From positions 62,001 through 126,000 of the forward strand of contig NZ_NFLQ01000008.1 of assembly GCF_002160985.1 (NCBI RefSeq): a stretch of 64,000 nt of DNA, read 5' to 3'. Under the pieces are notes generated by a model. It did no database searches and was not told where the DNA came from. It saw only the letters and a program-made list of their open reading frames with translations. Made by a program: the position numbers and the translations under genes. Below are positions 22,549 through 43,067 of this stretch, piece by piece (position 1 is the stretch's first letter; each line of letters opens with the position of its first letter). Source of the stretch: Lachnoclostridium sp. An118. Its GTDB lineage: Bacteria; Bacillota; Clostridia; Lachnospirales; Lachnospiraceae.

Positions 22549-22965
22549 ATGAGCGGAATCCAGCAGCGGAAAAAGACAGGAGAGTATTGCCGGGACGGGG
22601 CAGTGGTTTTTATCAACTGCTCTAATCATCCTTCAGAGGGATGGGGAGAAAGGCAGAGGGAAGAGGCGGAAAAATACGGGGAAATTGTAGATGTTCCGTT
22701 CCCGGAGGTGGATCCGGCATGGCCGGAGGAGAGGATAGGCGAAGAGGCTGAGAATATATGCAGGAAAATCTGTCAGTACAATGTGGCGGCAGTCATGTGT
22801 CAGGGGGAATTCACCCTCTCCTACGCCATTGTCAGCAGGCTGAAGGAGAGAGGAGTTCCTGTTTTTGCGGCCTGCAGCAGTCGGAAGGCTGTGGAGACTG
22901 TGAATCCGGACGGAAGCACGCGAAAGGAGGTGCTCTTTTGCTTTGAAAGATTCAGAAGGTACTGA
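22549..22965 (+). CDS. small CRISPR-associated Rossmann-fold protein (Csx15/Csx20-like)
   Basis: The 138-residue protein is the first gene of the type III-D operon. After 15 basic residues it shows VVFINCSNHPSEGWGERQREEAEKYG split by a turn, then IVDVPFPEVDPAWPEERI, VAAVMCQGEFTLSYAIVSRLKERGVPVFAA and a C-terminal FERFRRY. That order fits the small CARF-related Csx15/Csx16/Csx20 group, members of which bind or degrade cyclic oligoadenylates. I infer such a role here: limiting the signal made by Cas10. AGAGGGAGGGAAA precedes the start. The exact family is not certain. Confidence 0.65.
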   Translation: MSGIQQRKKTGEYCRDGAVVFINCSNHPSEGWGERQREEAEKYGEIVDVPFPEVDPAWPEERIGEEAENICRKICQYNVAAVMCQGEFTLSYAIVSRLKERGVPVFAACSSRKAVETVNPDGSTRKEVLFCFERFRRY

Positions 22966-22987
22966 CAGATCCCGGGGAGGAACCGCA

Positions 22988-23941
22988 ATGGAACAAAAGA
23001 TATCATTTGATATACCATATATCAGGCTTCGCTTTCGGTCGGAAATCCTGGCTGACACAGGTATGCCCGCAGCCAAGACGGCGGCTCTGCGGGGCGGAAT
23101 GGGGGAGATGCTCCTCAGACAGAATTGCGTGATGGACAGAAAATGCGAGGACTGCCAATTCAGCAAAGCCTGTGTCGTAGGGCACACCTTTTATTCTTAT
23201 ATGGAAAAAAAGCCGGCCTATGTGACAGGGCCGGAAAGCGTGGGGTATCTGATCGAGTGTACAGATAACCGCACGAAATTCAGGAGGGGCAGCTGTTTTG
23301 TATTCGACCTGGTCCTGTTTGGAGAGAGCATTGTCTTCTTTAACATATATCTGCAGGCCTTCTGTCAGCTTGGCATGACCGGACTGGGAAGAGAAAAGGC
23401 CCGTTTCCATATCAAAGAGGTGCGCAATACCCAGGGAGAGCTGGTCGTAAAGGAGAATGAGGTCGATATGAGCCACTACCGGGTAGGGAAAATCAGCGAT
23501 TATATCAGAGACAGAAGGAAAGAGCTGCTGGGCGGTGACGGAGAATGGTGGCTGACGTTCACAACGCCGCTGAGTATGAAATATCAGCAGGAATATATGA
23601 GCTGCTTTTACAGCGAAGCGCTGGTAAAGGGAGCGGCCAGAAGAGTGCAGATGCTTGACTTCTATATGGGGACAGAGGCAGCCGTGCCGGAGCTTCCACA
23701 TTATCCGGACATTGTGGGGCAGACAGCTGCCTGGGAGACGGTGAAGCGCTACTCCGCCACAAAGGACATGCATATGACGCTGCGGGGGATTGTCGGAGCA
23801 GTGTCATTCCGTGATATGCCGGAGGAATGTCTGGACTATCTGATCGCCGGCGAGCTGACCCACATTGGAAGAAATACGAGCTTTGGATTTGGAAAATATA
23901 CGATCAGCAGAGAGGGAAAGGAGCACAGAGGACATGAGTAA
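22988..23941 (+). CDS. cas6: CRISPR endoribonuclease Cas6
   Basis: Cas6 cuts the CRISPR precursor RNA within the repeats. The 317-residue protein begins MEQKISFDIPYIRLRF and carries four cysteines (C47, C53, C56, C62; CX5CX2CX5C) that could bind zinc, as in a subgroup of type III-associated Cas6 proteins. Near the C-terminus IGRNTSFGFGKY is the glycine-rich loop of the Cas6/RAMP fold. The start at 22988 has GGGGAGGAACCGCA upstream; the 15 extra codons of the longer frame overlap the previous gene. Its stop overlaps the cas10 start by eight bases. The repeats in this island have the stable GCCC/GGGC stem expected of a Cas6 substrate. Confidence 0.85.
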   Translation: MEQKISFDIPYIRLRFRSEILADTGMPAAKTAALRGGMGEMLLRQNCVMDRKCEDCQFSKACVVGHTFYSYMEKKPAYVTGPESVGYLIECTDNRTKFRRGSCFVFDLVLFGESIVFFNIYLQAFCQLGMTGLGREKARFHIKEVRNTQGELVVKENEVDMSHYRVGKISDYIRDRRKELLGGDGEWWLTFTTPLSMKYQQEYMSCFYSEALVKGAARRVQMLDFYMGTEAAVPELPHYPDIVGQTAAWETVKRYSATKDMHMTLRGIVGAVSFRDMPEECLDYLIAGELTHIGRNTSFGFGKYTISREGKEHRGHE

Positions 23942-25583
23942 CAGCTATATCCTTGCAATGTATGACATTCGGGGAAAACAGGATTACATTTACAGGAGCA
24001 GCAGGATCAAGGAGATTGTCGGGGGATCCTATATTATTAAGGACTGCTTTGACGACTTCCTTTTCCCGGCGGCCAGGGAGGCGTCTGAGGAAGAGCTGGG
24101 AAGCGGCCAGGGAAAAGGGATATTCAGCTACAGAAGGACGGGGGATACCGGGGAGCCGGCAGAATTTACCCCTGAGAATTTTGCGGACCGCATCCGCCGA
24201 GGCTACATCGGGGAAGTGATCTATGACGGGGGCGGCAATTTCTTTGTACTGTACAGAGACAGGGAGATTTACCGGGAGGTGAACAGGCGCTTCTATCACA
24301 GGCTTCTGGATGGAACCTATTCTCTGCGAGTTCTGACTACCTGTATTGATGAAGTCCACTTTGACGATTACCGGTATGATCAGAGGAGCCTGTACGAAAA
24401 GCACAGAAGAAGAGAGCAGAGGGAGAGTATGACAGGTCCGGTGAATACGCTGCCCGTCGTCCAGACGGATTACGGGACATCCATGCCCCTGGAGGCTCTC
24501 CAGAGGATCGGAGAGCGCATGGAAAAGGTAAGCTATGAGAGCAAGAAGAAATATGAAAAATACGAGAAGGTCAAAAAGGATTCCAGAAGCTATGAGATAC
24601 AGATCCAGATGGAGGGAAGCGAGATACTGGACAAGCTGATAACAGAGAAAGGGGAGGAGAGTCTCCTGGCGGTCGTCTATATAGACGGCAACAGCATGGG
24701 AGCCCGGGTGGAGAGCTGTCTGAAGCAACTCCGGACAGCGGACGGCGAGGAGGACCGATCCTATGTCTCCTGCGTAAGGGCTCTCAGGAAATTCTCGGAT
24801 GAGATCCAGGAGCACTATATTGACAGGCGGATCCAGGATGTGGACGCTCTTCTGGAGCAGAAGGAGAACGGGAGAAGGCGGTTCGTAGTCTATGCCGGGG
24901 ACGAGGTGACCTTTATCTGCAATGCGAGAAACGCATATGACGTGGCGGTGGAATACCTGACAAGGCTGGCAGAGGAGGCGCCTGAGGGACAGCCCAGAAC
25001 CTCCTGCGCCGGAATTGCGATCTTCCACAGCCATGCGCCCTTCCGTGAGGCCTACAGGATCGCGGAGGAGTGCTGTGAGTCGGGCAAGAAGCTGATGAAA
25101 GCGGAGGGGATTGAGAACGCGTCCCTGATCGATTTCCACTACTGCCAGGGCGCCTTCGGAACCTCTCTGGAGGAGATCCGGCGCGCGGAAGACACGGAGC
25201 AGAGCAGCAGGCCCTGGTTTGTAAACTGTTATGAGGATGGCAGGGAGATAACGGACGACTTCCCTGTAAAAGGAGTCTGTGTTTCCAGCAGGATCGTTGA
25301 GATGATGCGTGAGATGCTGAGCCGGGCAGGGAGAAGCAATATAAAAAATCTGGCTCTGAGCGCAAAGAGGAGCCGGGCAGAGTTCAAGTCTGAGGTGGAA
25401 AGGATCCGGGCTCACCAGCAGGAGAAGCAGATTGATTTCACGCTGGGGGGAAGGCTGGACGATGAGATGCAGCGGAAGCTGATCTATGACATGGTGCTTG
25501 TCTACGACCTGTGGTTTGATGATACGAACGTAAAAGAAAGTACGAAAGAAGGGGGAGAACAGGATGAGCGGCAGAGAGTATGA
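23934..25583 (+). CDS. cas10: type III CRISPR Cas10, HD-less (subtype III-D)
   Basis: Cas10 is the signature large subunit of type III complexes and makes cyclic oligoadenylates on target RNA binding. The 549-residue protein starts MSNSYILAMYDIRGKQDYIYRS and lacks an N-terminal HD nuclease domain, so DNA cleavage is not expected. Palm 1 is marked by YDGGGNFFVLY (97-107). Palm 2 has YIDGNSMG (249-256, metal-binding D251) and YAGDEVTF (320-327) where other Cas10 proteins have GGDD; here it reads A-G-D-E. The GDE core is compatible with metal binding, but the changes leave the level of synthase activity open. It overlaps cas6 upstream and csx10 downstream. Confidence 0.85.
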   Translation: MSNSYILAMYDIRGKQDYIYRSSRIKEIVGGSYIIKDCFDDFLFPAAREASEEELGSGQGKGIFSYRRTGDTGEPAEFTPENFADRIRRGYIGEVIYDGGGNFFVLYRDREIYREVNRRFYHRLLDGTYSLRVLTTCIDEVHFDDYRYDQRSLYEKHRRREQRESMTGPVNTLPVVQTDYGTSMPLEALQRIGERMEKVSYESKKKYEKYEKVKKDSRSYEIQIQMEGSEILDKLITEKGEESLLAVVYIDGNSMGARVESCLKQLRTADGEEDRSYVSCVRALRKFSDEIQEHYIDRRIQDVDALLEQKENGRRRFVVYAGDEVTFICNARNAYDVAVEYLTRLAEEAPEGQPRTSCAGIAIFHSHAPFREAYRIAEECCESGKKLMKAEGIENASLIDFHYCQGAFGTSLEEIRRAEDTEQSSRPWFVNCYEDGREITDDFPVKGVCVSSRIVEMMREMLSRAGRSNIKNLALSAKRSRAEFKSEVERIRAHQQEKQIDFTLGGRLDDEMQRKLIYDMVLVYDLWFDDTNVKESTKEGGEQDERQRV

Positions 25584-27831
25584 GCTGGTTATCACATTGA
25601 AATCAGACCTGTGTGCCGGGTCCGGCTACGCCTATGCCGGGATTATCGACAGCGATGTCTGCTATGACGCATATGGGTTTCCGTACATTGCGGCAAGACG
25701 GCTGAAGGGATGCCTCAGAGAGGCGGCGGAGCTGATCGGGCTAAAGAGCCGTGAAACAGGAGAGCTTTTCGGAAACCCAGGGGAAGATGCTGTCAAAGGC
25801 ATTCATATTGACAACGCATATATAGAGAATTACGGAGAGCTGCGCAGAGATTATGAAATGCTGGAAGAAAAATACCGGAGGTATATCACGCCCCAGAGCA
25901 TACTGGCGCAGTTTACGACAGTAAAAGCGCAGACAAGGATTGAGAAGAACGGCGTTGCGAAGGATGGATCCCTTCGGTATATCCGTACAGTCAACCATTA
26001 TTCACCGTCAGATCGGGACAAGGAGATGCGGTTTTATGCCAGAGTGACGCTGCCGGAGGGCCGGGAGGAGCAGTGGCTGCAGCCGATGGAGAGGATCGCG
26101 AAGGCGCTTCGCCACATAGGAATGAACAGAAACAGAGGGCTGGGAAGCGTAAGCTGCAGGCTTCTGCCCTGTGAAGGCAGCTCTGCTGCGGGCGCAGGTC
26201 CTGTGAACGTAGAGGAAGATGGAGACTACATCCTGAAATACTGCGTCAGAAATACGGCCCCCCTGGCCATGAGCGCGGCAAGTGATCTGAAAACTGAGAA
26301 ATATATCAGCGGGCGCAGCGTTCTCGGTTTTTTTGCAGGCGCCTACCTGCGCCTGGATGGGAAAAGCGCGGAGGATGAGGAGTTCAGAGATATTTTCCTG
26401 AGGAGTAAAGTGAAGTTTGGCGGACTTTATCCTGCCGGAAAGCCGCAGGGAGAGAAAGCGGACATTTATTATCCGGCTCCCTCATACATAAACCAGCTGA
26501 AGAAGACAAAAAGATATGTAAATGTCAGCAAGAAAATCCCCCGCACAGAGGAGGAGGCAGACCGCCTTGGGGTGGAAGCGGCCTGTGCCTCAGGCAATGG
26601 AAATCAGCCTAAGAGGCTGAAGGGGAAATTTATCTGCCTTAAGGAAACGGGGCAGGGAGCGGCGAAGATCCTTGTAAAGGAGCCGGACACTGATATCGTG
26701 TATCACCATACAAAGAAGTCAAAAAAACAGAGGTCTTCAGACGGCAATCTGCTCTATACAGCCGAGGTGCTCCGGGCAGGCCAGCTATTTGCAGGTGAGA
26801 TCAGAGGCAGCGGAAGGTATATCAGGCTTCTGGCAGAGCTTCTGGAGGGAAGCACGCTTCGATTTGGCAAGTCAAAAAGCGCCCAGTACGGGACCTGTGT
26901 GCTGGCAGACAGGCCTGTGATCCTGAGGGCAAAGGGAGAGAAGAGGACATATAAGGGCGGGAACCGGATCCTGGCGGTGCTGGAGAGCGATGCGATCTTT
27001 ACCGGCCCATACGGCTATACAGTCAGGTGTGATGAGGTCAGGGAACAGATAAAAGAGAGCCTTGGCGTGAAAGAGAAAGCCTGCACAGAGACAGACGAAG
27101 AGATCTATGCGGAGATCGAGACAGGGCTTCTCTCCGGCTACTATTCCAAATGGAATCTGCAAAGGCCGGCCGTGCCGGTCGTGAAGGCGGGAAGTACCTT
27201 TGAGTTTGAGCTGGAGGAGGAGCTGTCTGTAGAAGAGGACGCCCTGTGGACAGGGGAAAATAACGGAGAGGGCTTCGGAAGGCTGCGTATTGTGGACAAC
27301 AATGCCGGGGACTGCCGCGTGGAGCTCTCGGAGGAAGAGGAGAGAACGGCAGCAGAGCCGCCGGAGCGAGCCGCCGAGCTTTTCCGACGGATCATTGTCG
27401 AAGAGGCCAGGGAGCGGCTGCTGCTCCAGGCGTCCCAGAAGAGACTGGAGCTTGCCAACCCGGCGGCTCTTGGGAGGATCATGCTGATGCTCTCGGAGAG
27501 TGTCAATGCCTGCCCGGATGATCCCCGGGGTCAGTATGAGGATTTCTCCCGGCGGATCTCCTCTATCAAATCCACTGATCCGAGAGATAAGGCAGATGGC
27601 GCCCTGCGGGAGTGGATCTGCGGCCCGGAGGGCTACGAAGGCGGCCTGAAATATGCAGAGTATGTGGAGGATTTAAGAGAGCTGTATGACGGCCTCCTCA
27701 GGGACGGACATTCGGAGGATGCGTTTGACAAAGAAATGTACAGGCTGTGGAGCACCTATCTCATGGCAGCATTTGTGCAGGAAAAATACAGTCTGAAGCA
27801 GAAGGAGGGCAGCCATGGGACAGAGAGATGA
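25564..27831 (+). CDS. csx10: RAMP protein Csx10 (Cas5-like, III-D), with long helical C-terminus
   Basis: Csx10 is the Cas5-type subunit characteristic of subtype III-D and is expected to hold the crRNA 5' handle. The N-terminal part is diagnostic: LVITLKSDLCAGSGYAYAG, DSDVCYDAYGFPYIAARRLKGCLREAAELIG and a glycine-rich NRNRGLGSV near residue 195. At 755 residues it is longer than most Csx10 proteins I know. Residues about 600-755 are almost entirely helical and charged (RRIIVEEARERLLLQ, ALGRIMLMLSES), which might represent a fused small-subunit (Cas11-like) bundle; this is inference. It overlaps cas10 by 20 bases and the Cas7 fusion gene by 17. Confidence 0.8.
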   Translation: MSGREYELVITLKSDLCAGSGYAYAGIIDSDVCYDAYGFPYIAARRLKGCLREAAELIGLKSRETGELFGNPGEDAVKGIHIDNAYIENYGELRRDYEMLEEKYRRYITPQSILAQFTTVKAQTRIEKNGVAKDGSLRYIRTVNHYSPSDRDKEMRFYARVTLPEGREEQWLQPMERIAKALRHIGMNRNRGLGSVSCRLLPCEGSSAAGAGPVNVEEDGDYILKYCVRNTAPLAMSAASDLKTEKYISGRSVLGFFAGAYLRLDGKSAEDEEFRDIFLRSKVKFGGLYPAGKPQGEKADIYYPAPSYINQLKKTKRYVNVSKKIPRTEEEADRLGVEAACASGNGNQPKRLKGKFICLKETGQGAAKILVKEPDTDIVYHHTKKSKKQRSSDGNLLYTAEVLRAGQLFAGEIRGSGRYIRLLAELLEGSTLRFGKSKSAQYGTCVLADRPVILRAKGEKRTYKGGNRILAVLESDAIFTGPYGYTVRCDEVREQIKESLGVKEKACTETDEEIYAEIETGLLSGYYSKWNLQRPAVPVVKAGSTFEFELEEELSVEEDALWTGENNGEGFGRLRIVDNNAGDCRVELSEEEERTAAEPPERAAELFRRIIVEEARERLLLQASQKRLELANPAALGRIMLMLSESVNACPDDPRGQYEDFSRRISSIKSTDPRDKADGALREWICGPEGYEGGLKYAEYVEDLRELYDGLLRDGHSEDAFDKEMYRLWSTYLMAAFVQEKYSLKQKEGSHGTER

Positions 27832-29308
27832 TTGGAACAAGAAAAAGCTGATAAAAAAATATTACAGGATCACCTTTGAGCTGACCTCTCCCCTGACTGT
27901 GGGAAACGGGGAAAGCTATGTGACAGACCGGGATATCGTCAGAGACAGCAGGGGAGTTCCCTATATTCCGGGGAGCTCGCTGGCGGGGATATACAGGAGT
28001 CTGTTCTCATCCCCGACTGACGGACTCTATTTCGGAGCGGAGCTCACATCTGAGAAGATAGAGGAGTCTTCCGCCGGAGGGAAAAACGTGCTGACAGAGA
28101 GCAGGATTGTCGTATACGATGCTCAGATGGAGATGCCTTCGCAGACAAAATATGGAAAAGAAACAGCAAAGAGAGATATGGTCGCGCTGGATGAATATAA
28201 GACGGCCATCCCGGGGGCAAAGTTTGATTTTGAGGTTCTGGAGCCGGGCGTAAGGTTCGTCACATATATCGAACAGAATATGGACAGCCCGGATCAGCAG
28301 TATGTGATCAATGAGATCGCCCATGCCTGGATGCGGGGACGGATTGCCGTCGGCGCAAAGACAGAGAGAGGCTACGGACACACAAAGGGCATCAGGGCGG
28401 AGTCGGCGATGTATGAGCTTGACAATGCGGAGCAGCTGGAGGACTGGCTTGCCTTTGACATGTATGCGGATGAATGGGAAGGCGGCTGCACAGCGGTGGA
28501 TTGCGACGACAGCTGTCTTGGTGCGGCGGAGCCATCCTCCCCGGAATATGACAGGATAAAAGGCGCCTGCCTTGCCATGAAGATTTTTCTGGCAGAGGAG
28601 GAGAAGCGCACAGTCAGGCTGCGTCTTGCCCAGCGGGGCGGAATTTCGATACGCCAGTATACAACGAATGTGGACGAGGAGGATTACCGGCAGCTCACGA
28701 CCAGACCGGTCTCCGGTGAAGAGCGTGAGAATGGAGCAGAGGGGACGCCGGTTGTTCCCGGCACATCCTGGGCGGGAGCCTTCCGCGCCCAGATGGGACG
28801 GCTGGATCCCGGGTTCGGGAAGGGACAGCCGTCTGCGGAGCTGTTCTTTGGCAAGGCCAGGGGACAGCGGCAGGAAAAGAGCGGCAAGAGCCGGATCGGA
28901 TTTTCAGAGAGCCGGATCACCGGGGGCAAATGGGTTGCGTATACCCGAAATGCCATTGACCGGTTTACCGGAGGAACCGTAGAGGGAGCGCTTTACTCAG
29001 AAAAGACATATTACAACGGGGAGACGGAGCTGACCATCACCTGTGATTTCAGTGACAGGGGAGAGGGAAAGGTCGAGGAACAAGACAGAAGACATCTGGC
29101 CAGGGTGCTGTCCGCCGCAGTTCTGGATCTGGACGCCGGCTATATGGCAGTCGGCGGACTGACAGCAGTGGGAAGAGGAATGTTCCGCGTGGAGCAGATC
29201 GCTGTGGATGAAAAGCTGATCTTGGACAGAAAGGCCGGACAGAGCCCGGAGCCAGAGGAAGTCTTCGCCGAGCTTGTGAAGGCGATAGCAGGGGAGGAGG
29301 AAAGGTAA
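27815..29308 (+). CDS. fused double Cas7 (Csm3-like) RAMP protein
   Basis: The 497-residue protein contains two Csm3/Cas7-like RAMP domains in one chain. Domain 1 (about 15-195) has ITFELTSPLTVGNG, GVPYIPGSSLAGIYRSLF and the glycine-rich loop GRIAVGAKTERGYGH. Domain 2 (about 255-480) has VRLRLAQRGG, VVPGTSWAGAFRAQM, the thumb-like YTRNAIDRFTGGTVEGALYS and GYMAVGGLTAVGRGMF. In type III backbones Cas7 subunits coat the crRNA and cut target RNA at 6-nt steps; a fusion provides two adjacent backbone units. An Asp-rich turn before the first PGSSL motif could be catalytic. It is abutted directly by csx19. Confidence 0.85.
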   Translation: MGQRDDWNKKKLIKKYYRITFELTSPLTVGNGESYVTDRDIVRDSRGVPYIPGSSLAGIYRSLFSSPTDGLYFGAELTSEKIEESSAGGKNVLTESRIVVYDAQMEMPSQTKYGKETAKRDMVALDEYKTAIPGAKFDFEVLEPGVRFVTYIEQNMDSPDQQYVINEIAHAWMRGRIAVGAKTERGYGHTKGIRAESAMYELDNAEQLEDWLAFDMYADEWEGGCTAVDCDDSCLGAAEPSSPEYDRIKGACLAMKIFLAEEEKRTVRLRLAQRGGISIRQYTTNVDEEDYRQLTTRPVSGEERENGAEGTPVVPGTSWAGAFRAQMGRLDPGFGKGQPSAELFFGKARGQRQEKSGKSRIGFSESRITGGKWVAYTRNAIDRFTGGTVEGALYSEKTYYNGETELTITCDFSDRGEGKVEEQDRRHLARVLSAAVLDLDAGYMAVGGLTAVGRGMFRVEQIAVDEKLILDRKAGQSPEPEEVFAELVKAIAGEEER

Positions 29309-29872
29309 ATGAGCGTGGAGATAAAGAAATACGGCCCGGGCGACGAGGAGATGTTCTGTGCTGATTTCGACAGCAAAGTGCTTGCGGGACAGGACGCCGC
29401 GGCCGGTACAAGGTATATATTTGTCATGACAACCGAGGAAATCGGCTTCTGTGAGGCCCAAAGAGAGTCCTTTGACAGAAAGGAGCTTTTTGACAGTGGA
29501 CTGGAGATCCGGATCTTTGACGAAAAAAGCGAGGCAAAGTGGTTCCGCACAGGCATAGACAGACCGTTCCGCTTCCGCAAGAGGCGGGACGGCGAGGAGA
29601 CAGAAAAAGACAGGCTTCATCACTGGGATGAGTCCCAGTATCTGGATATTGACACGCAAAGAACAGAGGATGCGAGGAAAAGCGGAGCGCTTGAGGCTGG
29701 CTGTGTCTATGCCACAGGCGGAGGCAAATATCCTCTGCCCATAGAAGCGGGGACTGACGCAAAGATACGGATAAGAAATTATCTCGGGGAGGATCCGGAC
29801 ACCGGTGAGCTGTACGTGGAGGACTGGCGGCTGGCCGGATTTGGCGAATGGAAGGACGACAGGGAGGTGTAA
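29309..29872 (+). CDS. csx19: CRISPR-associated protein Csx19
   Basis: This 187-residue protein fits Csx19 (TIGR03984 family), a III-D component of unclear function. Recognisable parts are the mid-region EIRIFDEKSEAKWFRTG, HHWDESQYLD, a GCVYATGGGKYPLPI stretch and a C-terminal IRIRNYL followed by LYVEDWRLAGF. The gene begins at the base after the stop of the Cas7 fusion gene and is followed two bases later by the TIGR03986 gene, so it is made as part of the effector operon. Csx19 might be a small subunit or accessory factor of the complex. Confidence 0.75.
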   Translation: MSVEIKKYGPGDEEMFCADFDSKVLAGQDAAAGTRYIFVMTTEEIGFCEAQRESFDRKELFDSGLEIRIFDEKSEAKWFRTGIDRPFRFRKRRDGEETEKDRLHHWDESQYLDIDTQRTEDARKSGALEAGCVYATGGGKYPLPIEAGTDAKIRIRNYLGEDPDTGELYVEDWRLAGFGEWKDDREV

Positions 29873-29874
29873 CA

Positions 29875-32205
29875 ATGCAGAGGTTCATAAATCCATATAA
29901 TTTTATATCACTCTCAGATAAGCCCCAGCGGCAGCAGGAGGCTGAGGGACAAAAGTACACCGGCTCTGTCACATACAGGCTGCGCACCCGCTCCAGCCTT
30001 TTTATACCAAACACCAGCAGCAACAAAGCCTTTTCCTACACTCCTGACAAGGAGGATGATCCGAGAAACGAGCACGGGCTGTATGACTTTTTCTCCTATG
30101 AGATCCTCGACCCGGACAAGGTGTATGACGGGCAGTATTTTGAGCCTGTCATTCCGGGAAGCGAGGTCCGGGGGATGCTCCGGAGCATCTACGAGACACT
30201 GACCAATTCCTGCCTGCCTGTGATGGACGGAGAAAAGAGGATCGGGAAAAGGACTGTGGAGCATTTTAAGCCCGCAGTGCTGAAGTGGGAGCACGGCCAT
30301 ATCTATCTGCATGATGTGCTGGATAAAAGGGGCAGGCCAAAGGGGGAGGCTCTGTACAGGGACCGGTCGGATTTCTCCGACAAAAAGCATCTTTCCTGTC
30401 AGATACGGGACGGTATGAAGGTGAGCTTCTCGCTGGCTAAAAAGGAAAGTGGCAATGCCTTTGCCAAACCGGATGTGGAGGAGATCTCGGAGACGCCGGG
30501 GAAATATCCTCATGAAGGGTATATCCTGAAGGGGAACCAGGGGAAAAAGCACAGCCCGGAGATCGTGCCGAACAAGAACAGTAAATGCGGTTCATGCGTG
30601 ATGCGCCAGAGGGGAAAATGTCCGGGAAACAGGGACAGCAAAGTGGAGCACTGCTTTCTGGCTGAAAAGCACTGCGCCCATGTGTTCTATATACCACCCG
30701 ACACAGACAGTTCTTTCCGCCTGAACACGGCAAGCAGGGAGACGCTGCGCCTCGTGCTGGAGCAGTATATGAAGGAGGATCCGGATTCCTACAGGGAGTA
30801 TGAGATCTCCTATAAGGAGTTTATGGCAGGCAGAGCGGACGGCCTTCCCGTATATTATTCCAGGCTGGATGACACGGACTATGTCATGCTCTCTCCCGCC
30901 TGCATTACGAGAGAGGTCTATAAAAATACAGTAAATACACTGGTAGATGAATACAGAAGGTGCAATTCCAGGGAGAGAAAGCTGTGCCCCGCGTGCCGGC
31001 TCTTTGGTATTGTGAATTCCGATGTCGCGCAAGGCAGCAGGATCCGGTTCTCGGATCTGCACCCGTCTGCGAAAAGAGATTGTCGGGAATACTATGACAA
31101 AAAGCTGCTGACGCTGGATCCGCTGGCGGTTCCCCACCCGGAAAACACAGAGTTCTATCTCAAAAAACCGGAAGCAAAGCCAATTGATCCGGACGGAGAG
31201 GTATGGTTCTGGACCTATGACTACTACACGGTGAAAAACAGGAACAACCAGGTCATTGTCAAGTCGTACCAGCCTCAGATATCAGGCAGAAAGTTTTACT
31301 GGAATAATTTGACCCCGGTGAGAGACTGTGGGAAGAAGACGGCTCTTAACAGAACAGTGAGGACAGTCCGCCCGGGAGTGGAATTTACAGGAACCATATA
31401 TTTTGATGGTATCAGTAAAAGACAGCTGGATCAGCTGCTCTATATCCTGATGTATACGTCCGATGGAAAACACGGGTACAAGCTGGGAACCGGTAAGCCG
31501 CTCGGCCTTGGAAGCGTGGAGCTGTCTATAGATAATGCACGGGACGTCTCAATCCGCATGTTTGACGAGAAGGGCTATCACTGCACGCACATGGATGATC
31601 TGGAAAAGATCCATCAAAGTACCTTTGAGGAGCTTGGAATGGATACCAGGACGGAGAAGCCCTTTGAGCTGATCACAAGATACCTCAGGGCCGAGGAGAT
31701 GGCATGCATCCACTATCCGAGAACAGGCGATAAGGAGGACGAAGAGGGCTTCCAATGGTTTATGAAGAATAAGGTGTATCATAAGTATGATAAAAAGACA
31801 AGACAAGTTGGCTTTGTGGACCCAGGAGGAGTTGCGGCGGCCAGAATTCAGATGGAGGTAAAAACCAGCCTGCCCACACTGGATGGAGGCGAGGTGCCCT
31901 GGCTTCCGTCTGATCCTCAGGCGGTGAGTGAAAAAAAGCCGGATAAAGGCAGAAATGACAACAGGAAGAAGGAAAAGGATCGTACTGCATGGGAGCCAAA
32001 GAAAACCTATAGAGTGCGGATTACCTCTCAGAGCCGACCGGCAAGAAATGAATATTTCTATGAGTATGATATAGAAGTTCTGAGTGAACCGGCTCTAAAC
32101 AAGAAAAGTAATATTATTACTGCAAAGAAGAAAATATTTCTGAAGCCGGGTGATGAGGTGGAAGCAGTGAAGTTTAAAGATGGGATTTTTAACCTGAAGC
32201 GATAG
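29875..32205 (+). CDS. TIGR03986-type CRISPR RAMP protein (large Cas7-like)
   Basis: The 776-residue protein opens with MQRFINPYNFISL, the hallmark of the TIGR03986 RAMP family of type III-D loci. It has FEPVIPGSEVRGMLRSIYET as first RAMP motif, cysteine clusters that could hold zinc (CGSCVMRQRGKC with later HCF and HC, about 240-265; CPACRLFG near 370), and a second RAMP core with GTGKPLGLGSVEL. The last 150 residues are a charged linker followed by a small beta domain. The start at 29875 is chosen for AGGGAGGTGTAAC upstream and for the family N-terminus. It closes the effector operon. Confidence 0.82.
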   Translation: MQRFINPYNFISLSDKPQRQQEAEGQKYTGSVTYRLRTRSSLFIPNTSSNKAFSYTPDKEDDPRNEHGLYDFFSYEILDPDKVYDGQYFEPVIPGSEVRGMLRSIYETLTNSCLPVMDGEKRIGKRTVEHFKPAVLKWEHGHIYLHDVLDKRGRPKGEALYRDRSDFSDKKHLSCQIRDGMKVSFSLAKKESGNAFAKPDVEEISETPGKYPHEGYILKGNQGKKHSPEIVPNKNSKCGSCVMRQRGKCPGNRDSKVEHCFLAEKHCAHVFYIPPDTDSSFRLNTASRETLRLVLEQYMKEDPDSYREYEISYKEFMAGRADGLPVYYSRLDDTDYVMLSPACITREVYKNTVNTLVDEYRRCNSRERKLCPACRLFGIVNSDVAQGSRIRFSDLHPSAKRDCREYYDKKLLTLDPLAVPHPENTEFYLKKPEAKPIDPDGEVWFWTYDYYTVKNRNNQVIVKSYQPQISGRKFYWNNLTPVRDCGKKTALNRTVRTVRPGVEFTGTIYFDGISKRQLDQLLYILMYTSDGKHGYKLGTGKPLGLGSVELSIDNARDVSIRMFDEKGYHCTHMDDLEKIHQSTFEELGMDTRTEKPFELITRYLRAEEMACIHYPRTGDKEDEEGFQWFMKNKVYHKYDKKTRQVGFVDPGGVAAARIQMEVKTSLPTLDGGEVPWLPSDPQAVSEKKPDKGRNDNRKKEKDRTAWEPKKTYRVRITSQSRPARNEYFYEYDIEVLSEPALNKKSNIITAKKKIFLKPGDEVEAVKFKDGIFNLKR

Positions 32206-32493: not shown

Positions 32494-32890
32494 GTAGAAA
32501 TGAAAGAAGCCCGTTTAGGGCGTTGACACGTTTTTTCAGGATAACGTTTTTTCATAGTTTTACTCAGTAGAAATGAAAGAAGCCCGTTTAGGGCGTTGAC
32601 ACACAGGAGCAACCTCAACGGGTTCCTCTACTGTTTCCGTAGAAATGAAAGAAGCCCGTTTAGGGCGTTGACACACAGGAGCAACCTCAACGGGTTCCTC
32701 TACTGTTTCCGTAGAAATGAAAGAAGCCCGTTTAGGGCGTTGACACCAATCTGTACGCCTCTATCAGTCGCAATACTGCCCCGTAGAAATGAAAGAAGCC
32801 CGTTTAGGGCGTTGACACACCCCTTTATGTAAGGTTCTAGTTGCAGCTAGGACCGTAGAAATGAGAAGAGCCCGTCCAGGGCGTTGTATT
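32494..32890 (+). CRISPR. CRISPR array 1 (6 repeats, 5 spacers)
   Basis: Repeats are 36 bases, beginning GTAGAAATGAAAGAAGCCCG and ending GGGCGTTGACAC. They start at 32494, 32567, 32639, 32711, 32783 and 32855; the last is degenerate (GAGAAGAGCCCGTCC, then TTGTATT). Spacers are 37, 36, 36, 36 and 36 bases. Spacers 2 and 3 are identical. The GCCC-GTTTA-GGGC hairpin followed by GTTGACAC predicts an eight-base crRNA handle after Cas6 cutting. Confidence 0.97.
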
Positions 32891-32971: not shown

Positions 32972-34540
32972 ATGAAACAGGAACTGATTACTATGACAGA
33001 GAAGTGGAAGGGATTAGAGCGAAAGACCGTAAAGCAGAGGGAAAAGGCTGATAATTTTTATGAGACAAAGCTCATGAAGCTTATCGAAGAAGAATTTGTA
33101 GCAAACAATAGCGAAAAGGTCTATGAGAAAGTTGAATATTTGATCATGTCCGTGGGGACGTCATACGAACCGCTTGTGCTGGATATCCAATTATTGCAGC
33201 CCAGGCGGATTCTTTTTCTCTATACAGAGACAACGGAGAGTGTCTTGAACAAGATAGCGAAATACTGCCAGCTGGATCCGGTGCGCTATTCCAAAAGACA
33301 GGTCAATGAGACGGACCCGCTGGATGTCTACAGGGAAATCAAAGCCGCGTATTTAAAGTGGAATCGTCCGGACAAGCTGTACATCGACTTTACAGGCGGC
33401 ACAAAGGCCATGTCCGCAGCAGCTGCGATGGCGGGCTCGGTTATCAAGGTTCAGCTTGTTTATATCGGATCTGAGCAGTATCTCACAGATTTCAGGAAGC
33501 CGGAGCCGGGCTCAGAGAGACTGTACTATATTTCCAATCCAATAGAGATATTTGGAGACCTGGAGATAGAGAAGGCGTTAGAGCTGTTCGACAAATATAA
33601 TTATGCGGGAGCCAGAGAAAAGCTGAGAGAGCTGAAGGAAACAGTGCCCGCCCCCGATATCAGGCAGCAGCTTTCATTTGTACATGATCTTGCAATGGTT
33701 TATGAATATTGGGATGCGCTGGAGTTTCCGCAGGCTTACAAGGCGATGTGTTCATTGACAAAGGATTTGGAGCGGGATTCCCGGCTCAACCCTGACTTCC
33801 TTATGATGGATTTCCTGCCGGCGCTGAAGAGACAGGAGGCAGTGCTGAAGCAGCTTGATGAGTTGTCCGGTTTGCTGAAAGAAAAGAAGAATATGGACAT
33901 TTTAAGGGGAACAGAATATATTGTCCCGCTTATGTTTACGATGTATGAAAACGCTGAAATCCGGAGAAAGCAGAAGAAGTACGATATGGCTACATTGCTG
34001 CTGTACAGGCTTCTGGAAATGATAGAGCAGAGACGACTGGCTGTCTACAACCTTTATATTTCTCAGATGAATTACAGGGACATTATTTATAATACGGAGC
34101 GCTGCCCCGAGATGGAGGGAAAAGACGCCGATGAAAGAAAGCGGTTGCTGGAGAAGACGGTGTACGATATCAGGCGGCAGCTTTTCAAGAGAAATGTCAA
34201 TCGCTATCTTCTGGATCAGATATCACTTCTGGAGGGCTTTATCCTTCTTCTGGCGCTGAATGACGAGATATCGGAGGCGAGAGCCGGACAGCCAATTGAT
34301 AAGCTCAGGAGTGTCCGCTCCATGGTGTATTTGCGGAACAACAGTATTTTCGCACATGGGCTGGGGCCGGTATCGGAAGAGGATTTTCTGAAATTCAGAG
34401 GCTTTGTGCTTGAAATATTCAGGGAGTTCTGCGAGGTTGAGAAGATTGACTTTGACAGCTATTCCCGGGATATGGAGTGGCTGGATCCGCTGCACTCGAA
34501 GAATTATGTGCGTATGGAGGAGGCGGAGCCATGGCGGTGA
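32972..34540 (+). CDS. CARF-HEPN ribonuclease, TIGR02710-like (Csm6/Csx1 type)
   Basis: A 522-residue accessory ribonuclease of the Csm6/Csx1 type. The N-terminal CARF domain has the first strand and loop LIMSVGTSYEP (58-67) and the second ligand loop DFTGGTKAMSAAAAMAG (139-155), which bind cyclic oligoadenylate in this family. A helical middle follows. The C-terminal HEPN domain has RNNSIFAHG with R455 and H462 (R-X6-H), the RNA-cutting pair. It should be activated by the Cas10 product. AAGGAGGTAATAT precedes the start. It is first in an operon with cas1, cas2 and the RT-primase, and its stop overlaps the cas1 start by ten bases. Confidence 0.88.
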   Translation: MKQELITMTEKWKGLERKTVKQREKADNFYETKLMKLIEEEFVANNSEKVYEKVEYLIMSVGTSYEPLVLDIQLLQPRRILFLYTETTESVLNKIAKYCQLDPVRYSKRQVNETDPLDVYREIKAAYLKWNRPDKLYIDFTGGTKAMSAAAAMAGSVIKVQLVYIGSEQYLTDFRKPEPGSERLYYISNPIEIFGDLEIEKALELFDKYNYAGAREKLRELKETVPAPDIRQQLSFVHDLAMVYEYWDALEFPQAYKAMCSLTKDLERDSRLNPDFLMMDFLPALKRQEAVLKQLDELSGLLKEKKNMDILRGTEYIVPLMFTMYENAEIRRKQKKYDMATLLLYRLLEMIEQRRLAVYNLYISQMNYRDIIYNTERCPEMEGKDADERKRLLEKTVYDIRRQLFKRNVNRYLLDQISLLEGFILLLALNDEISEARAGQPIDKLRSVRSMVYLRNNSIFAHGLGPVSEEDFLKFRGFVLEIFREFCEVEKIDFDSYSRDMEWLDPLHSKNYVRMEEAEPWR

Positions 34541-35535
34541 TCTACATTAAAGAGCAGGGAAGCTTTGTTCAGAAAAAGGGCGGACGGATCGCGGTGAGCA
34601 AGAATTCGCAGCCTCTCATGGAATTTCCGGTTTCAAATATAGAGGGGATTGCTCTCATGGGCAATGTGCAGATTACCGCACAGGCACTTCATTTTCTTCT
34701 TCAGCAAGGCATTGACATCAGCCATTATACGTACGGCGGTCAGTATCTGGGCCAGACCGCGGCAGAATCTTCAAAAAATATATTCTTACGATTTTCCCAA
34801 TATGAGCTTTACAACAATGAGATAAAGAGGCTGGAGTTTGCGAAAGACATTGTGGCGAATAAAATAGAGAACCAGCTTGAAATGCTCCGCAGTCATCGCT
34901 GGGAGGGGTATCCGGAGTGGAAGGAAGATGCTGTCCGGATCCGCAAAATGAAAGAGAAGGTCTGTTCTGCAGAGACGGCAAATGAATTGCTGGGCATAGA
35001 GGGAATGTGCAGTAACATTTATTTTCGCGCATTTGGCCATATGCTCTGCTGTGAATTTGAGTTTCACGGAAGGAATCGGCGCCCGCCCAGGGATCCGGTC
35101 AATGTGATCATCAGTCTGGGATATACGTTCCTCACAAAGGAAATCTGTGCTGCTCTGGAGGCGGAGTCATTTGAACCGTACCTGGGTCTGCTTCACGGCA
35201 TACGTTATGGTCGAAAATCGCTTGCTCTGGATATTATTGAGGAATTTCGCCAGCCGGTCATTGACCGTATGACCTTGAAGCTTTTCAATAAGAGGATGCT
35301 CTCAAAGTATGATTTTGATATGGAGGAGGACAGAGTAATTCTGAACACAGAGGGCTTTCGGAAATTCTGTGCGGAATATGAGAAGTGGATGTCCGGAAAA
35401 GCAGGAGGTGAAAATGCGTCTGGATTTCGGGGCGCCATACGCAGGCAGGTCGGACTTTTAAAGCAGTGTATTCAGAAAGACGTTCGGTATATCCCGTTCA
35501 GACTGGGGGTGCATGATGTACGTGGTAAGCTATGA
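34531..35535 (+). CDS. cas1: CRISPR integrase Cas1
   Basis: Cas1 with Cas2 inserts new spacers at the leader end of arrays. The 334-residue protein has the N-terminal beta domain (MAVIYIKEQGSFVQKKGGRI) and the catalytic helical domain with E157 (GIEGMCSN), H222 (LLHGIRYGR) and D234 (LALDIIEEFRQ). The start at 34531 has GGAGGAGGCGGAGCC upstream; a longer frame from 34477 lies wholly inside the previous gene. Cas1 is not fused to the reverse transcriptase here. The cas2 start lies 23 bases inside its 3' end. Confidence 0.95.
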   Translation: MAVIYIKEQGSFVQKKGGRIAVSKNSQPLMEFPVSNIEGIALMGNVQITAQALHFLLQQGIDISHYTYGGQYLGQTAAESSKNIFLRFSQYELYNNEIKRLEFAKDIVANKIENQLEMLRSHRWEGYPEWKEDAVRIRKMKEKVCSAETANELLGIEGMCSNIYFRAFGHMLCCEFEFHGRNRRPPRDPVNVIISLGYTFLTKEICAALEAESFEPYLGLLHGIRYGRKSLALDIIEEFRQPVIDRMTLKLFNKRMLSKYDFDMEEDRVILNTEGFRKFCAEYEKWMSGKAGGENASGFRGAIRRQVGLLKQCIQKDVRYIPFRLGVHDVRGKL

Positions 35536-35800
35536 CATTTCTTCGGACCGTCTGCGAGGCAAAGCGGCCAAAATACTGGAAGGCTATGGAATACGGATAC
35601 AGTACAGCGTATTTGAGTGCAGGCTGACAGAAAAGAAGTATAAAGAGCTGTATGGAAAATTGCTGGAGCTGATGGCAGGCGCAAAGGAGGGGAGTATACG
35701 CTTTTATTCTATATGCGGAAATTGTGAGGATAAGATCCTTACAATAGGGCAGGTCGCTTCCATGACAGAGCAAGCGACAGCGCCTGTGATCGTGATATGA
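35513..35800 (+). CDS. cas2: CRISPR-associated Cas2
   Basis: The 95-residue ferredoxin-fold protein starts MMYVVSYDISSDRLRGKAAKILEGYG split by a turn and continues IQYSVFECRLTEKKY, the typical Cas2 pattern with the first-strand Asp (YDIS). It bridges two Cas1 dimers in the integration complex. It overlaps cas1 by 23 bases. The stop TGA at 35798 sits in ATATGAG; reading +1 from the last codon would continue straight into reverse-transcriptase sequence (see the next entry and findings). Confidence 0.95.
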   Translation: MMYVVSYDISSDRLRGKAAKILEGYGIRIQYSVFECRLTEKKYKELYGKLLELMAGAKEGSIRFYSICGNCEDKILTIGQVASMTEQATAPVIVI

Positions 35801-35912
35801 GCCTCTCTTCTCATCGAGCACCTATGCATACCGGCCTGGGCAGTCGGCGCTGGAAGCCATAAACGTCATCGAAGAGAAGACAAAGGGACGGGATGATCTG
35901 TGGGTTCTTCAG

Positions 35913-38363
35913 ATGGATATCTCCGCTTTCTTTGACCATATCCCACATGAGGAGCTGCTTCGTATACTAAGCAGACAAATCAGGGAAAACGATGTGCTGG
36001 AAGTGGTGAAAGCAATTTTAAAAGCAAAGGTACTAGATGAAAACACAGGAGATCTCAGTGAGAATCAGATTGGAATTTACCAGGGGTCTTCCTGTGCGCC
36101 GCTGCTGTCGAACATTTATCTTATGGATTATGACAGGGAAATGGAAAAGAGGAGCAGCTTTTATATACGTTATTCTGACGATATTCTCGCCCTGGAGTCC
36201 AGCGAAGAAAATGCAGGTCGGCTCTTTGAATATTCCAGACTTTATCTTGGGAAAATGGGGCTGGAGCTAAAAGAAAGCAAGACCAGACTCCAGCGTCTCG
36301 GGAGAGAGGGATTTACGTATCTCGGTTATCGCTTTACTGTCAATGGAAAAGCTGTGCCTGCAAAAGCAGTGTCTTCACTGACATCACGGCTGGAGACTAT
36401 GTGGCTTACGTCCGGACTTGAACTGGATAAAAAAATAAAGAAAGGCCAGGAAATCCTTGGAGGATGGGAGCAGTACTATCGCGGCGAGAGGAAACCGGAC
36501 AGTATGATTGAATATGTGATTATTCTCTCCATGGTTCAAAACAAAGAGAAGGAGATACGTGAAAAAATAGAGGAACAGAGATTTGCACAGGTTAATTACT
36601 ATAAGGATATCGCAAAATATATGGCGGATTACTGGATCGGAAGAGAGAAGCTTAGCTTTGCGCTGAGAGAATATGAGCAGTTTTATCAGGTTCCGGAGGA
36701 GCCGGGGAAATCGGGGACGGATAAGGAGCATGACCAAAAGTATGTAAGATTTTCCGGAGAACTGGCAAAATGTTATGAGAGACTTCTGACAGAGCCCTCC
36801 GATGAGCTCTGTGCGGACATTATGCAGCTGTACACGGATATGGGCGAATATGAAAAGGCATCCTGTTTTTGGGAGATGAAGGTCAGGTATTCACAGAAAT
36901 CATCTGTGGACTCCTGGGCGGACGACAGAAAAGCCCTGGATATGACGAATTTAACAGACAATAGCAAGGCGAAAATGGATATACAGGAATACATGGAGCT
37001 CTTTGCAGGGAGAGAAGATACCTATGCGGTAGAGATGCCTGGCCCGGGAGGAAAGAGGATTGCGGAACAGGTGATGGAGCCCCTTACGGAAGAAGTGATC
37101 AGGCGACATCTGGCGGGAGAGATGACAGTAGAGTCTTATGTCCAGCGGCCAAACAGTACAGCAAAATACACAGTCTTTGACATTGATATTTCTAAAAGGA
37201 TACTGCTGCAGTACAGCTATGGAAGCGCTGAATTCACAGCATACAAGCAAAAAGCGGCCGGCTTTGCCCGACAGTTATGCAAAGTACTCAGGAGGATAGG
37301 GCTGACAGGCTATGTGGAGGATACAGGATTCAGAGGATATCATGTCTGGGTGTTCTTTACGGAGTGGATTCCTGTGCGGTACATTAACCAGTTTACTGAC
37401 TGCGTGCAGAAGGAGCTTGAGGAAGAGGAGGAAGATATCCTCCTGGAGATTTTCCCCAATAATATAAGGGTGAGACAGGGAAAGTGCGGGCAGAGGATCA
37501 AGCTGCCGCTGGGAATACATATCCGTACCGGACAGCAGAGCTTCTTTCTGGATGAAGGCATGTCCCCGGTGGTTGACTACAAGGAGTTCCTCTCGGGAAT
37601 TGCCAAATATTCTCTTGCTGCCGTCAGGAAAATACTGGGCATGTATACGATGGATGTAAAAGGACAGCCAGGACAGCCGGAGCTAAAGGTGGCGGACCAA
37701 AATCTCGAGCGCTTCGGCCCGCTTCCTGAAGCCGTCAGGATCGTGCTGGAAAAATGCAGTCTTATGCGCTATCTCTGCCAAAAGGCAGCGACCACCGGCT
37801 ACCTGGCCCACTCCGAGCGACTGTCAGTGCTGTACGTATTTGGACATATGGGCGACGAGGGGAAAGAGTTCCTGCATACGGTCATGGGATTTACTATGAA
37901 TTACCAGTTTGATATCACTCAAAGGTTTATCGACAAGCTGCCGGAAAAGCCGATCAGCTGTGTGAAGCTGAGAGAGCAGTATAAGCTGATCACCGCTGAA
38001 TATGGATGCAGCTGTAATTTCAAAAGAACAAAGAATTGTTATCCGTCGCCTGTTCTCCATGCGATAAAAAACAGCGGGGAGGACCAGACGGAGATCACGG
38101 TACCTGTAAGCAGGACAGTATCAAGAACCAAAGAAGAAAAAATCTACGAAGAGATCAATATCCACAAGCAGACAGAAAAGCTTGCGCAGAAAATAGTTGA
38201 GCTTAAGAAGCAGAGAAGAGGACTGGATAAATCCATTCACAAGGTGGAGACGGAGCTTCAGAGGATATTTGACAGCGCGGGCATTGACTGTCTGGAGATT
38301 GAGATGGGTATGTTGGTGAGAAGGAAGCAGGGGGATGGGTATGAATGGCTGATTGAATTATAG
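35913..38363 (+). CDS. reverse transcriptase-primase fusion (CRISPR adaptation polymerase), N-terminally short
   Basis: The 816-residue protein joins two polymerases. Residues 1-220 are a group II intron-type reverse transcriptase: MDISAFFDHIP with first catalytic D2, QGSSCAPLLSNIYL (57-70), the YSDD box (87-90), LELKESKT and FTYLGYRF, then a maturase-like thumb ending GWEQYYRG. Residues about 415-560 form an archaeo-eukaryotic primase domain: FDIDIS (D423, D425), GFRGYHVWVFF (472-482) and KLPLGIHIRTG with later FFLD. A Cys-containing region (CSLMRYLC, CSCNF, NCYPSP) may hold a PriL-like metal site, and the end is coiled coil. In-frame sequence from 35796 encodes the missing RT motif STYAYRPGQSALEAI but no start codon, so the true 5' end is unresolved. 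It directly follows cas2, implying a role in spacer acquisition from RNA or in gap filling. Confidence 0.85.
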   Translation: MDISAFFDHIPHEELLRILSRQIRENDVLEVVKAILKAKVLDENTGDLSENQIGIYQGSSCAPLLSNIYLMDYDREMEKRSSFYIRYSDDILALESSEENAGRLFEYSRLYLGKMGLELKESKTRLQRLGREGFTYLGYRFTVNGKAVPAKAVSSLTSRLETMWLTSGLELDKKIKKGQEILGGWEQYYRGERKPDSMIEYVIILSMVQNKEKEIREKIEEQRFAQVNYYKDIAKYMADYWIGREKLSFALREYEQFYQVPEEPGKSGTDKEHDQKYVRFSGELAKCYERLLTEPSDELCADIMQLYTDMGEYEKASCFWEMKVRYSQKSSVDSWADDRKALDMTNLTDNSKAKMDIQEYMELFAGREDTYAVEMPGPGGKRIAEQVMEPLTEEVIRRHLAGEMTVESYVQRPNSTAKYTVFDIDISKRILLQYSYGSAEFTAYKQKAAGFARQLCKVLRRIGLTGYVEDTGFRGYHVWVFFTEWIPVRYINQFTDCVQKELEEEEEDILLEIFPNNIRVRQGKCGQRIKLPLGIHIRTGQQSFFLDEGMSPVVDYKEFLSGIAKYSLAAVRKILGMYTMDVKGQPGQPELKVADQNLERFGPLPEAVRIVLEKCSLMRYLCQKAATTGYLAHSERLSVLYVFGHMGDEGKEFLHTVMGFTMNYQFDITQRFIDKLPEKPISCVKLREQYKLITAEYGCSCNFKRTKNCYPSPVLHAIKNSGEDQTEITVPVSRTVSRTKEEKIYEEINIHKQTEKLAQKIVELKKQRRGLDKSIHKVETELQRIFDSAGIDCLEIEMGMLVRRKQGDGYEWLIEL

Positions 38364-38585: not shown

Positions 38586-38747
38586 TATAATATTTGTGGG
38601 GATACGATGTGTAAGAGTCGAAAATATGAACAAATTGTAAACATGCCATAAAATGTCCGAAAATCAGTTGATGTCAGAATTTTCTGGCAAATACCTGCAA
38701 AAATGAGCCTGGGAAGCCAGTGTTTATGCGGGGTTCAGGAGGGTACT
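38586..38747 (+). promoter_or_regulatory. CRISPR leader of array 2
   Basis: This region has the same organisation as leader 1: TATAAT (38586-38591), TATGAACAAATTGTAAACAT, a dyad at 38672-38689, the TGTTTATGCGGG stretch and TACT directly before the first repeat. The dyad differs from that of leader 1 by a paired change (see findings). The weak 72-codon antisense frame across it is not a gene. Confidence 0.8.
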
Positions 38748-39465
38748 GTAGAAATGGAAGGAGCCCGTTTAGGGCGTTGACACAACATAGATCTTCATCT
38801 GTGCGTCATAAACCGCATAAACGTAGAAATGGAAGGAGCCCGTTTAGGGCGTTGACACATCCCTTTTATAGCATTCAGTGCATCATCTGCTGAGTAGAAA
38901 TGGAAGGAGCCCGTTTAGGGCGTTGACACATGACTAATTGCCCAGCCATCTTCACAAAAGCATCTGTAGAAATGGAAGGAGCCCGTTTAGGGCGTTGACA
39001 CCCAAATAGCATCATATTTACCGCGTCGGTTACTACATCGTAGAAATGAAGAGAGCCCGTTTAGGGCGTTGACACATTTCCTAAAGTGTCAAACGGTGCT
39101 GTTTTTAATGTAGAAATGAAGAGAGCCCGTTTAGGGCGTTGACACATACTTCTTTAATTTTCCGTCAAACATTTCCTCTAAGTAGAAATGAAGAGAGCCC
39201 GTTTAGGGCGTTGACACACTAAGGTTTGAGATTCTGCACCACATTTCTAATTTAGGTGCAAATGTCATAGGTTTCATGAGCAGTAGAAATGAAGAGAGCC
39301 CGTTTAGGGCGTTGACACTATATGGTTTATTAAAGTATTATACTGAAATATATTTTGTAGAAATGAAGAGAGCCCATTTAGGGCGTTGACACACTTCTCT
39401 GATTTCTTCTTTTCTCATTCTCTTTTCCTGTAGAAATGAAAGAAGCCCGCTTAGGACATATAAAG
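38748..39465 (+). CRISPR. CRISPR array 2 (10 repeats, 9 spacers)
   Basis: Repeats of 36 bases start at 38748, 38823, 38894, 38966, 39040, 39110, 39182, 39283, 39357 and 39430. Repeats 1-4 carry GAAATGGAAGGAGCCC, repeats 5-9 GAAATGAAGAGAGCCC, and the final degenerate repeat GAAATGAAAGAAGCCC as in array 1. Spacers are 39, 35, 36, 38, 34, 36, 65, 38 and 37 bases; the seventh (39218-39282) is anomalous in length. All repeats but the last end GTTGACAC; repeat 9 has one substitution (CCCATTTAGGG). Confidence 0.97.
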
Positions 39466-41552: not shown

Positions 41553-41565
41553 GGAGGGAAAGAAA

Positions 41566-42881: not shown

Positions 42882-42989
42882 GTAGAAATGGAAGGAGCCC
42901 GTTCAGGGCGTTGACACTCAACAGGGGTTGCAGGTTCAAGCGGAATCAATGGAAGTGGAAAAAAGAGAGCCCGTTGAGGGCATTTTTGC
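42882..42989 (+). CRISPR. CRISPR array 3, minimal (1 full repeat, 1 spacer, 1 degenerate repeat)
   Basis: The full 36-base repeat at 42882-42917 (GAAATGGAAGGAGCCCGTTC variant) is followed by a 36-base spacer and a decayed repeat at 42954-42989 that keeps AGAGAGCCCGTTGAGGGC but has lost both ends. The leader is intact. Confidence 0.85.
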
Positions 42990-43067
42990 CGGAATATTCC
43001 GCATAGAAAAATAGATATGGCTGGAATTAAAGCAATAAAAAACATATAAGTAATCAGGAGGACCGGT

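Follow-up and report, generated by a model that had tools for sequence, protein, structure and literature searches.

The stretch of DNA analysed here (the window; 64,000 nucleotides of Lachnoclostridium sp. An118, contig NZ_NFLQ01000008.1, positions 62,001 to 126,000) contains a gene that joins a reverse transcriptase (RT) to a CRISPR-associated primase-polymerase (CAPP), located directly 3' of full-length cas1 and cas2 in a type III-D locus. Very probably, this is a CART-CAPP gene of the III-D system that was damaged by a 306-bp deletion between two copies of TATGA, and its RT half is predicted to be dead. A first-pass annotation of the same DNA had placed the gene directly behind cas1–cas2 of a III-D locus, and both statements hold: cas1 occupies 34477–35535 and cas2 35513–35800, and PADLOC matches to Cas10d and to Cas5/Cas7 of III-D support the type.

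RT and primase-polymerase domains in one open frame

The frame at 35796–38363 (plus strand) is uninterrupted over 855 codons plus stop. In Pfam, its translation matches RVT_1 (2.4e-24), AEP-TOTE primase (2.9e-31) and, at the C-terminus, TOTE Mu_Gam/Gp157-like (6e-27). Residues 325–821 reach 261.6 bits (1.2e-77) with the NCBIfam model NF040561, ‘CRISPR-associated primase-polymerase type A1’, which has a curated cut-off of 200 bits. The PADLOC models detected were PrimPol ‘adaptation polymerase’ (179.7 bits), RT (154.6) and UG10 (121.7). Additionally, residues 395–613 match the CAPP primase-polymerase (Prim-Pol) structures 7nqd and 7nqf (E about 1e-30), with D462/D464 aligned to the DxD of 7nqd. 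The predicted Prim-Pol fold resembles the six listed Marinitoga CAPP chains with Foldseek template modelling (TM) scores of 0.87–0.91; a model of an intact relative, L033, gave 0.84–0.88. The catalytic aspartates of the RT (motif-A Asp, YSDD) are kept in the frame, and the RT lies N-terminal to the CAPP Prim-Pol within one protein.

These matches bear out the earlier assignment of an RT and an AEP primase to one chain; a missing primase match at residues 415–560, one of the two outcomes that the first-pass annotation had named as refuting, did not occur. The motif numbers then given (YSDD 87–90, D423-x-D425) are correct if counted from the ATG at 35913; counted from 35796 (P0001 numbering, used here) they are 126–129 and 462/464. 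The interval 35796–38363 stands as an open frame, but not as gene coordinates, for it has no start, nor as a complete RT. The gene is composed as follows:

35796..38363, plus strand: remnant of the RT–Prim-Pol (CART-CAPP) gene, no start codon at the 5' end
35796..35800, plus strand: apparent deletion junction TATGA (cas2 stop TGA 35798–35800 / RT codons 98–99)
35796..36500, plus strand: RT remnant with palm and thumb start, motif-A Asp and YSDD; N-terminal extension and fingertip hairpin absent
36978..37634, plus strand: CAPP-type AEP/Prim-Pol domain; D462-x-D464, H516 and E551 kept
37635..38360, plus strand: CAPP C-terminal domain with conserved Cys cluster (GCSCNFKRTKNCYPSP) and TOTE Gam/Gp157-like end

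Missing start and an apparent 306-bp deletion

The codon at 35796 is TAT and stands immediately 3' of an in-frame TGA. The first in-frame ATG of the RT frame is at 35913, and six Shine-Dalgarno-like motifs sought in the 20 bases before it were all absent; a further internal ATG, at 36399, is preceded by GGAG, starting 7 bases upstream. Compared with full-length relatives, the window RT is without its first 97 residues. In four near full-length relatives (L033, L034, L035 and L065) the order is cas2 stop (TATGA), GGAGG-type ribosome-binding site, ATG, 97 codons and a second TATGA, which corresponds to RT codons Y98–E99. The distance from TATGA to TATGA is 306 bp in all four; the more distant L037 has a distance of 312, with TTTGA in place of the second copy. 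In the window TATGA occurs once at this site and runs straight into RT sequence, and DNA alignment with the relatives leaves a clean gap. One TATGA together with 306 missing bp is the pattern left by deletion between short direct repeats, and judging from the aligned sequences such a deletion appears to have removed the gene start and the RT front. Most likely, what remains in the window is a broken gene or one reduced to its primase. A programmed frameshift joining cas2 to the RT was considered and rejected, because the fingers would still be missing and a simple deletion is what the alignment shows.

Parts of the RT that were lost

Residues 3–232 of L033 align with the GsI-IIC RT (6ar1) from residue 3 on (phmmer), so the group II-type RT of this intact relative is complete and includes the N-terminal extension. 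Five residues, K69, R74, R82, D83 and Q87 (L033 numbering), are invariant in 21 aligned intact proteins and lost in the window. In the alignment with 6ar1, counted by hand, R74 stands opposite residue 75 of the GsI-IIC RT; R75 of that enzyme is a conserved arginine that likely stabilises the incoming dNTP (PMC12337344). The L033 model (mean pLDDT 83.3, pTM 0.56) places the strands of a hairpin at 62–69 and 72–78, within the part missing from the window, and in CaCART-CAPP (Caloramator) both polymerase and primase activity were abolished without the fingers β-hairpin (PMC10415136). The modelled RT matches 5hhl_A with a TM score of 0.82 in L033 versus 0.38 in the window (Foldseek, target-normalised). 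Complete RT fingers and palm, present in 27 full-length relatives, are not found in the window, and the RT half is predicted to be dead because the fingertip hairpin is gone. By its sequence, the window gene is a damaged member of CART-CAPP by descent, not a complete one.

Intact and damaged relatives

We collected 43 related loci by a scan of genome contigs with the alignment of the Prim-Pol and C-terminal domain (CTD), all from Lachnospiraceae or other Clostridia and most from draft or metagenome assemblies. In 27 of them the fusion is open from the first RT residues (in L074, which is among them, the match begins at residue 10) and the order is cas1–cas2–RT-CAPP. The RT front is lost in six loci at junctions without Ns within 500 bases: L036 (about cas2 residue 84 to RT 116), L040 (early cas1 to RT 222), L052 (cas1 134 to 365), L054 (about cas2 55 to RT 302–309), L068 (cas2 56 to RT 28) and L075 (cas1 270 to RT 269). 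It is also missing (from about 365) in L038, near a contig edge. No deletion junction of a relative coincides with that of the window. Since this bait misses loci without Prim-Pol/CTD, the proportion of RT-lost loci here cannot be read as a frequency across all loci. Other lesions are frameshifts (L051, L063), a rearrangement (L066), a Prim-Pol deletion (L069) and one stop (L037); contig ends truncate L057 and L073, and in L059 and L071 the match is gapped. On a 44-row Prim-Pol/CTD tree built by a quick method, at least seven changes are required to account for the eight rows without RT front, among them the window and L038; 33 rows were scored as RT present and three not counted.

The RT–Prim-Pol fusion is uncommon among the family and class genomes searched. 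Besides the genome of the window, a strong Prim-Pol/CTD match was found in 4 of 299 family genomes, taken as the same loci as L046, L072, L053 and L057, and in one of 391 class genomes, which gave two weak matches as well. In L082, from the class-genome search, the gene is split by a frameshift. A common frameshift site near the Prim-Pol DxD (L063, L082) was rejected: the places differ, and that of L082 is at an A run.

A CARF–HEPN gene (TIGR02710) is present upstream of cas1, or of its former place, in 35 of 39 assessable loci, L038, L052, L057 and L071 being set aside because the contig is cut near the gene; the match is missing in L053, L055, L068 and L074. This signalling nuclease apparently travels with the adaptation genes. 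As for arrays, the median size was 17 units in 27 intact loci versus 10 in eight RT-lost loci, window included (Mann–Whitney p 0.056; p 0.018 for long loci only, 16 versus 5). The units are rough (spacing divided by 70), with flanks and contig ends uncontrolled, and the comparison is not used as evidence.

Lineage of the RT

The RT tree separates 27 CART-CAPP RTs, that of the window among them, from 25 other RTs of family genomes by a branch with an SH-aLRT support of 100; the tree was built by a quick method, and the program warns that long branches meet at that split. The main tree omits the long-branch row L074, and a second tree with L074 gives the same split. All 25 comparison RTs match NCBIfam group_II_RT_mat, and within their fetched loci no cas1 or cas2 match was found. 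No intron RNA was detected near the window RT: with Rfam at gathering thresholds, the only hit between 20 and 50 kb was a tRNA. A position among group II introns unrelated to CRISPR loci was the outcome that the first-pass annotation had named as fatal to its own proposal; the RT groups instead with CRISPR fusion RTs. The comparison covers CART-CAPP and group II RTs, RT-Cas1 and other CRISPR-RT clades being outside the tree.

Decay or use of the remaining half

Several observations weigh against a damaged and dead gene. The 855 remaining codons are without a stop, which also fits a gene still under selection. The window differs at 2 of 125 conserved sites, and in leave-one-out counts 26 intact proteins differ at 0–5 (L074 is excluded, and the RT-lost L036 is without a count). 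The remnant thus shows no decay, yet a young deletion would look alike. Synonymous changes are saturated or not estimable for most pairs, window–L033 included, and with synonymous divergence (dS) saturated, its ratio to nonsynonymous divergence (dN/dS) cannot settle between a dying and a working remnant. Moreover, the junction is known from one assembly of one strain, and only single domains of the window model (mean pLDDT 82.3) were used, because its whole-chain pTM is low (0.38). We nevertheless rank a dead or dying gene as more likely than a working Prim-Pol remnant.

Such a working remnant, a shorter CAPP made from an internal start that primes and extends DNA for Cas1–Cas2, is unlikely in our judgement, even though much of the conservation is compatible with it. 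All 27 intact relatives, like the window, keep the DxD of the Prim-Pol and its His and Glu positions. L040, L052 and L054, all without RT front, have no excess of changes at conserved sites (1/106, 1/86 and 1/93, respectively), as is true of the window. In 19 of 20 pairs dN is lower in the CTD than in either of the other two parts (L044–L070 is the exception), and the ATG at 36399 with its GGAG might serve as the start. Set against this, the Prim-Pol domains were inactive in the two fusions tested (PMC10415136), further lesions in the same genes of L036, L068, L075 and L038 point to decay, and L040 and L052 also have a cut cas1, with cas2 gone or not found. The wider proposition that gut Lachnospiraceae repeatedly cut off the RT half, keep and use an active Prim-Pol half and so turn capture from RNA-capable to DNA-only is rather improbable; an active Prim-Pol half would contradict what was seen in the two fusions assayed to date.

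An assembly error or a mixed population, with a full gene in the true chromosome, is very improbable. The sequence comes from a single assembly of 57 contigs, but the junction is at about 98 kb in a contig of 152 kb, and in relatives this region was lost through separate deletions whose junctions are free of Ns to a distance of 500 bases. A 5-bp repeat is not normally enough to collapse an assembly.

We give hardly any credence, for the window allele, to the complete dual-polymerase enzyme of the first-pass annotation, in which the RT copies RNA and the primase primes or completes the product in one chain: the two domains do share one frame, and intact relatives combine a complete group II-type RT with a Prim-Pol bearing its catalytic residues, but the window has its RT start codon and fingers deleted, which contradicts the scheme for this allele, and in tested relatives the RT alone primes and extends (PMC10415136). 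The identities of the domains and the adaptation context in that proposal were sound. Both activities belong to the RT in the tested fusions, and with the RT fingers lost, the window gene is not expected to yield one enzyme that both copies RNA and completes the product.

For a CART-CAPP gene damaged by deletion, the course of events would be the following. The 306-bp deletion would have taken 97 codons from the RT front, along with the ribosome-binding site and start codon. In the family, as shown for two relatives, the RT domain starts and extends DNA on RNA or DNA templates, and the fusions presumably hand their products over to Cas1–Cas2. In the window, the RT half would be dead through loss of the fingertip hairpin, and at most a product of Prim-Pol and C-terminal domain might be made from an internal start, e.g., ATG 35913 or ATG 36399. 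Spacer capture, if it continues, would be carried out by Cas1–Cas2 with DNA substrates.

The surrounding locus

The neighbouring features in the window are as follows:

22943..32205, plus strand: III-D effector module with cas6, Cas10d, Cas5/Cas7 III-D RAMPs, Csx19-like and TIGR03986
32494..32890, plus strand: CRISPR array 1, 6 repeats; leader-like sequence from 32352
32972..34540, plus strand: CARF–HEPN (Csx1/Csm6, TIGR02710) gene, overlaps cas1
34477..35535, plus strand: cas1, full length; true start may be downstream of GTG 34477
35513..35800, plus strand: cas2, 95 amino acids, full length
38748..39465, plus strand: CRISPR array 2, 10 repeats, the last degenerate; leader-like sequence from 38606
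42882..42999, plus strand: CRISPR array 3, one good repeat and one degenerate copy; leader-like sequence from 42740

The Csx19 match in the effector module is weak (PADLOC, 4.9e-06). The Cas10d-like protein (23865-25583) reads AGDE where type III Cas10 proteins usually have GGDD, and cyclic oligoadenylate synthesis may be altered.

A leader-like stretch of 178 nucleotides occurs in three copies, one per array (32352-32529, 38606-38783 and 42740-42917), the outer copies being 85% and 92% identical to the middle one. Repeats of array 2 vary along its length, with ATGGAAGGAG in the four leader-proximal repeats, ATGAAGAGAG in the next five and ATGAAAGAAG in the last; the repeats of array 1 are mainly ATGAAAGAAG, the variant of the last repeat of array 2. 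Within array 1, two adjacent units with an identical spacer (32566-32707; 72-nucleotide units, 99% identical) represent a tandem duplication. Spacers of arrays 1 and 2 had no match among 50,697 phage records, and the cas1–RT-CAPP stretch had no near match among 72,556 plasmids.

Behind array 2, a gene on the minus strand (39557-40663) has weak WYL (PADLOC, 1.2e-08) and WCX matches and perhaps encodes a regulator. Between arrays 2 and 3 lies a two-gene unit (40845-42684), possibly a separate defence pair, the first gene of which has a weak DUF4407 match under the cut-off and the second a match to PADLOC BnzB (1.8e-16). A second CARF–HEPN-like gene (43068-44612; PADLOC CARF2, 3.8e-31) is located behind array 3.

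Comparison with known systems

The fusion is not new: this architecture was described in 2021 as CAPP-RT (Zabrady et al., PMC8211822) and characterised in 2023 as CART-CAPP (Zabrady et al., PMC10415136), which makes the window gene a damaged representative of an established type. Recurrent RT-front deletions, invariant Prim-Pol residues and the order CARF–cas1–cas2–RT-CAPP were not found in the available text of the literature searched; a search for truncated or degenerate CRISPR RTs gave no paper, most subscription journals being outside its reach, and the term ‘primase’ is absent from the available text of PMC6013744 and PMC5541045. Two findings were less expected, the repeated loss of the RT and the retention of the Prim-Pol catalytic residues in every one of the 27 intact fusions. 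With naturally RT-deleted alleles and many intact ones side by side, this bacterial group offers a useful set. Together with the unchanged Prim-Pol residues, these alleles render it testable whether the Prim-Pol half of CART-CAPP acts alone, and they let one ask whether RT loss alters what a type III system records.

The characterised CART-CAPP proteins (Caloramator australicus CCJ33120 and Geobacillus lituanicus) likewise consist of an N-terminal RT, a Prim-Pol and a C-terminal domain and lie beside cas1–cas2 in type III loci, an adjacency that the window shares; in contrast to them, the window gene is without a start and RT fingers. In both fusions tested, priming as well as extension came from the RT domain, and the Prim-Pol domain had no activity (PMC10415136). 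The Prim-Pol catalytic residues are invariant in the set studied here, the motifs of those two proteins being outside the comparison. The intact relative L033 has an RT N-terminal extension, whereas CaCART is reported without one (PMC10415136), and L033 matches 8bgj only distantly (E 7.7e-10).

UG10 (PADLOC RT_UG10), another known RT–primase combination (PMC8934634), similarly has an RT and an AEP-like primase in one protein or neighbourhood. The window gene scores lower on the UG10 models and sits in a cas1–cas2 operon; its best PADLOC matches are the adaptation PrimPol and RT models, and it is not assigned to UG10. Cas6-RT-Cas1 and RT-Cas1 proteins (Marinomonas; 7kft) are likewise CRISPR RTs serving adaptation, and the RT of L033 matches 7kft (E 1.5e-17). 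In those proteins the RT is fused to Cas1 and there is no Prim-Pol, whereas Cas1 of the window is separate. The Marinitoga proteins MpCAPP and MsCAPP, which have no RT, share the predicted Prim-Pol fold of the window, and D177/D179 of MpCAPP form the same DxD (PMC8211822). Their partner domain is a TPR (PMC8211822), whereas the window frame keeps an RT palm.

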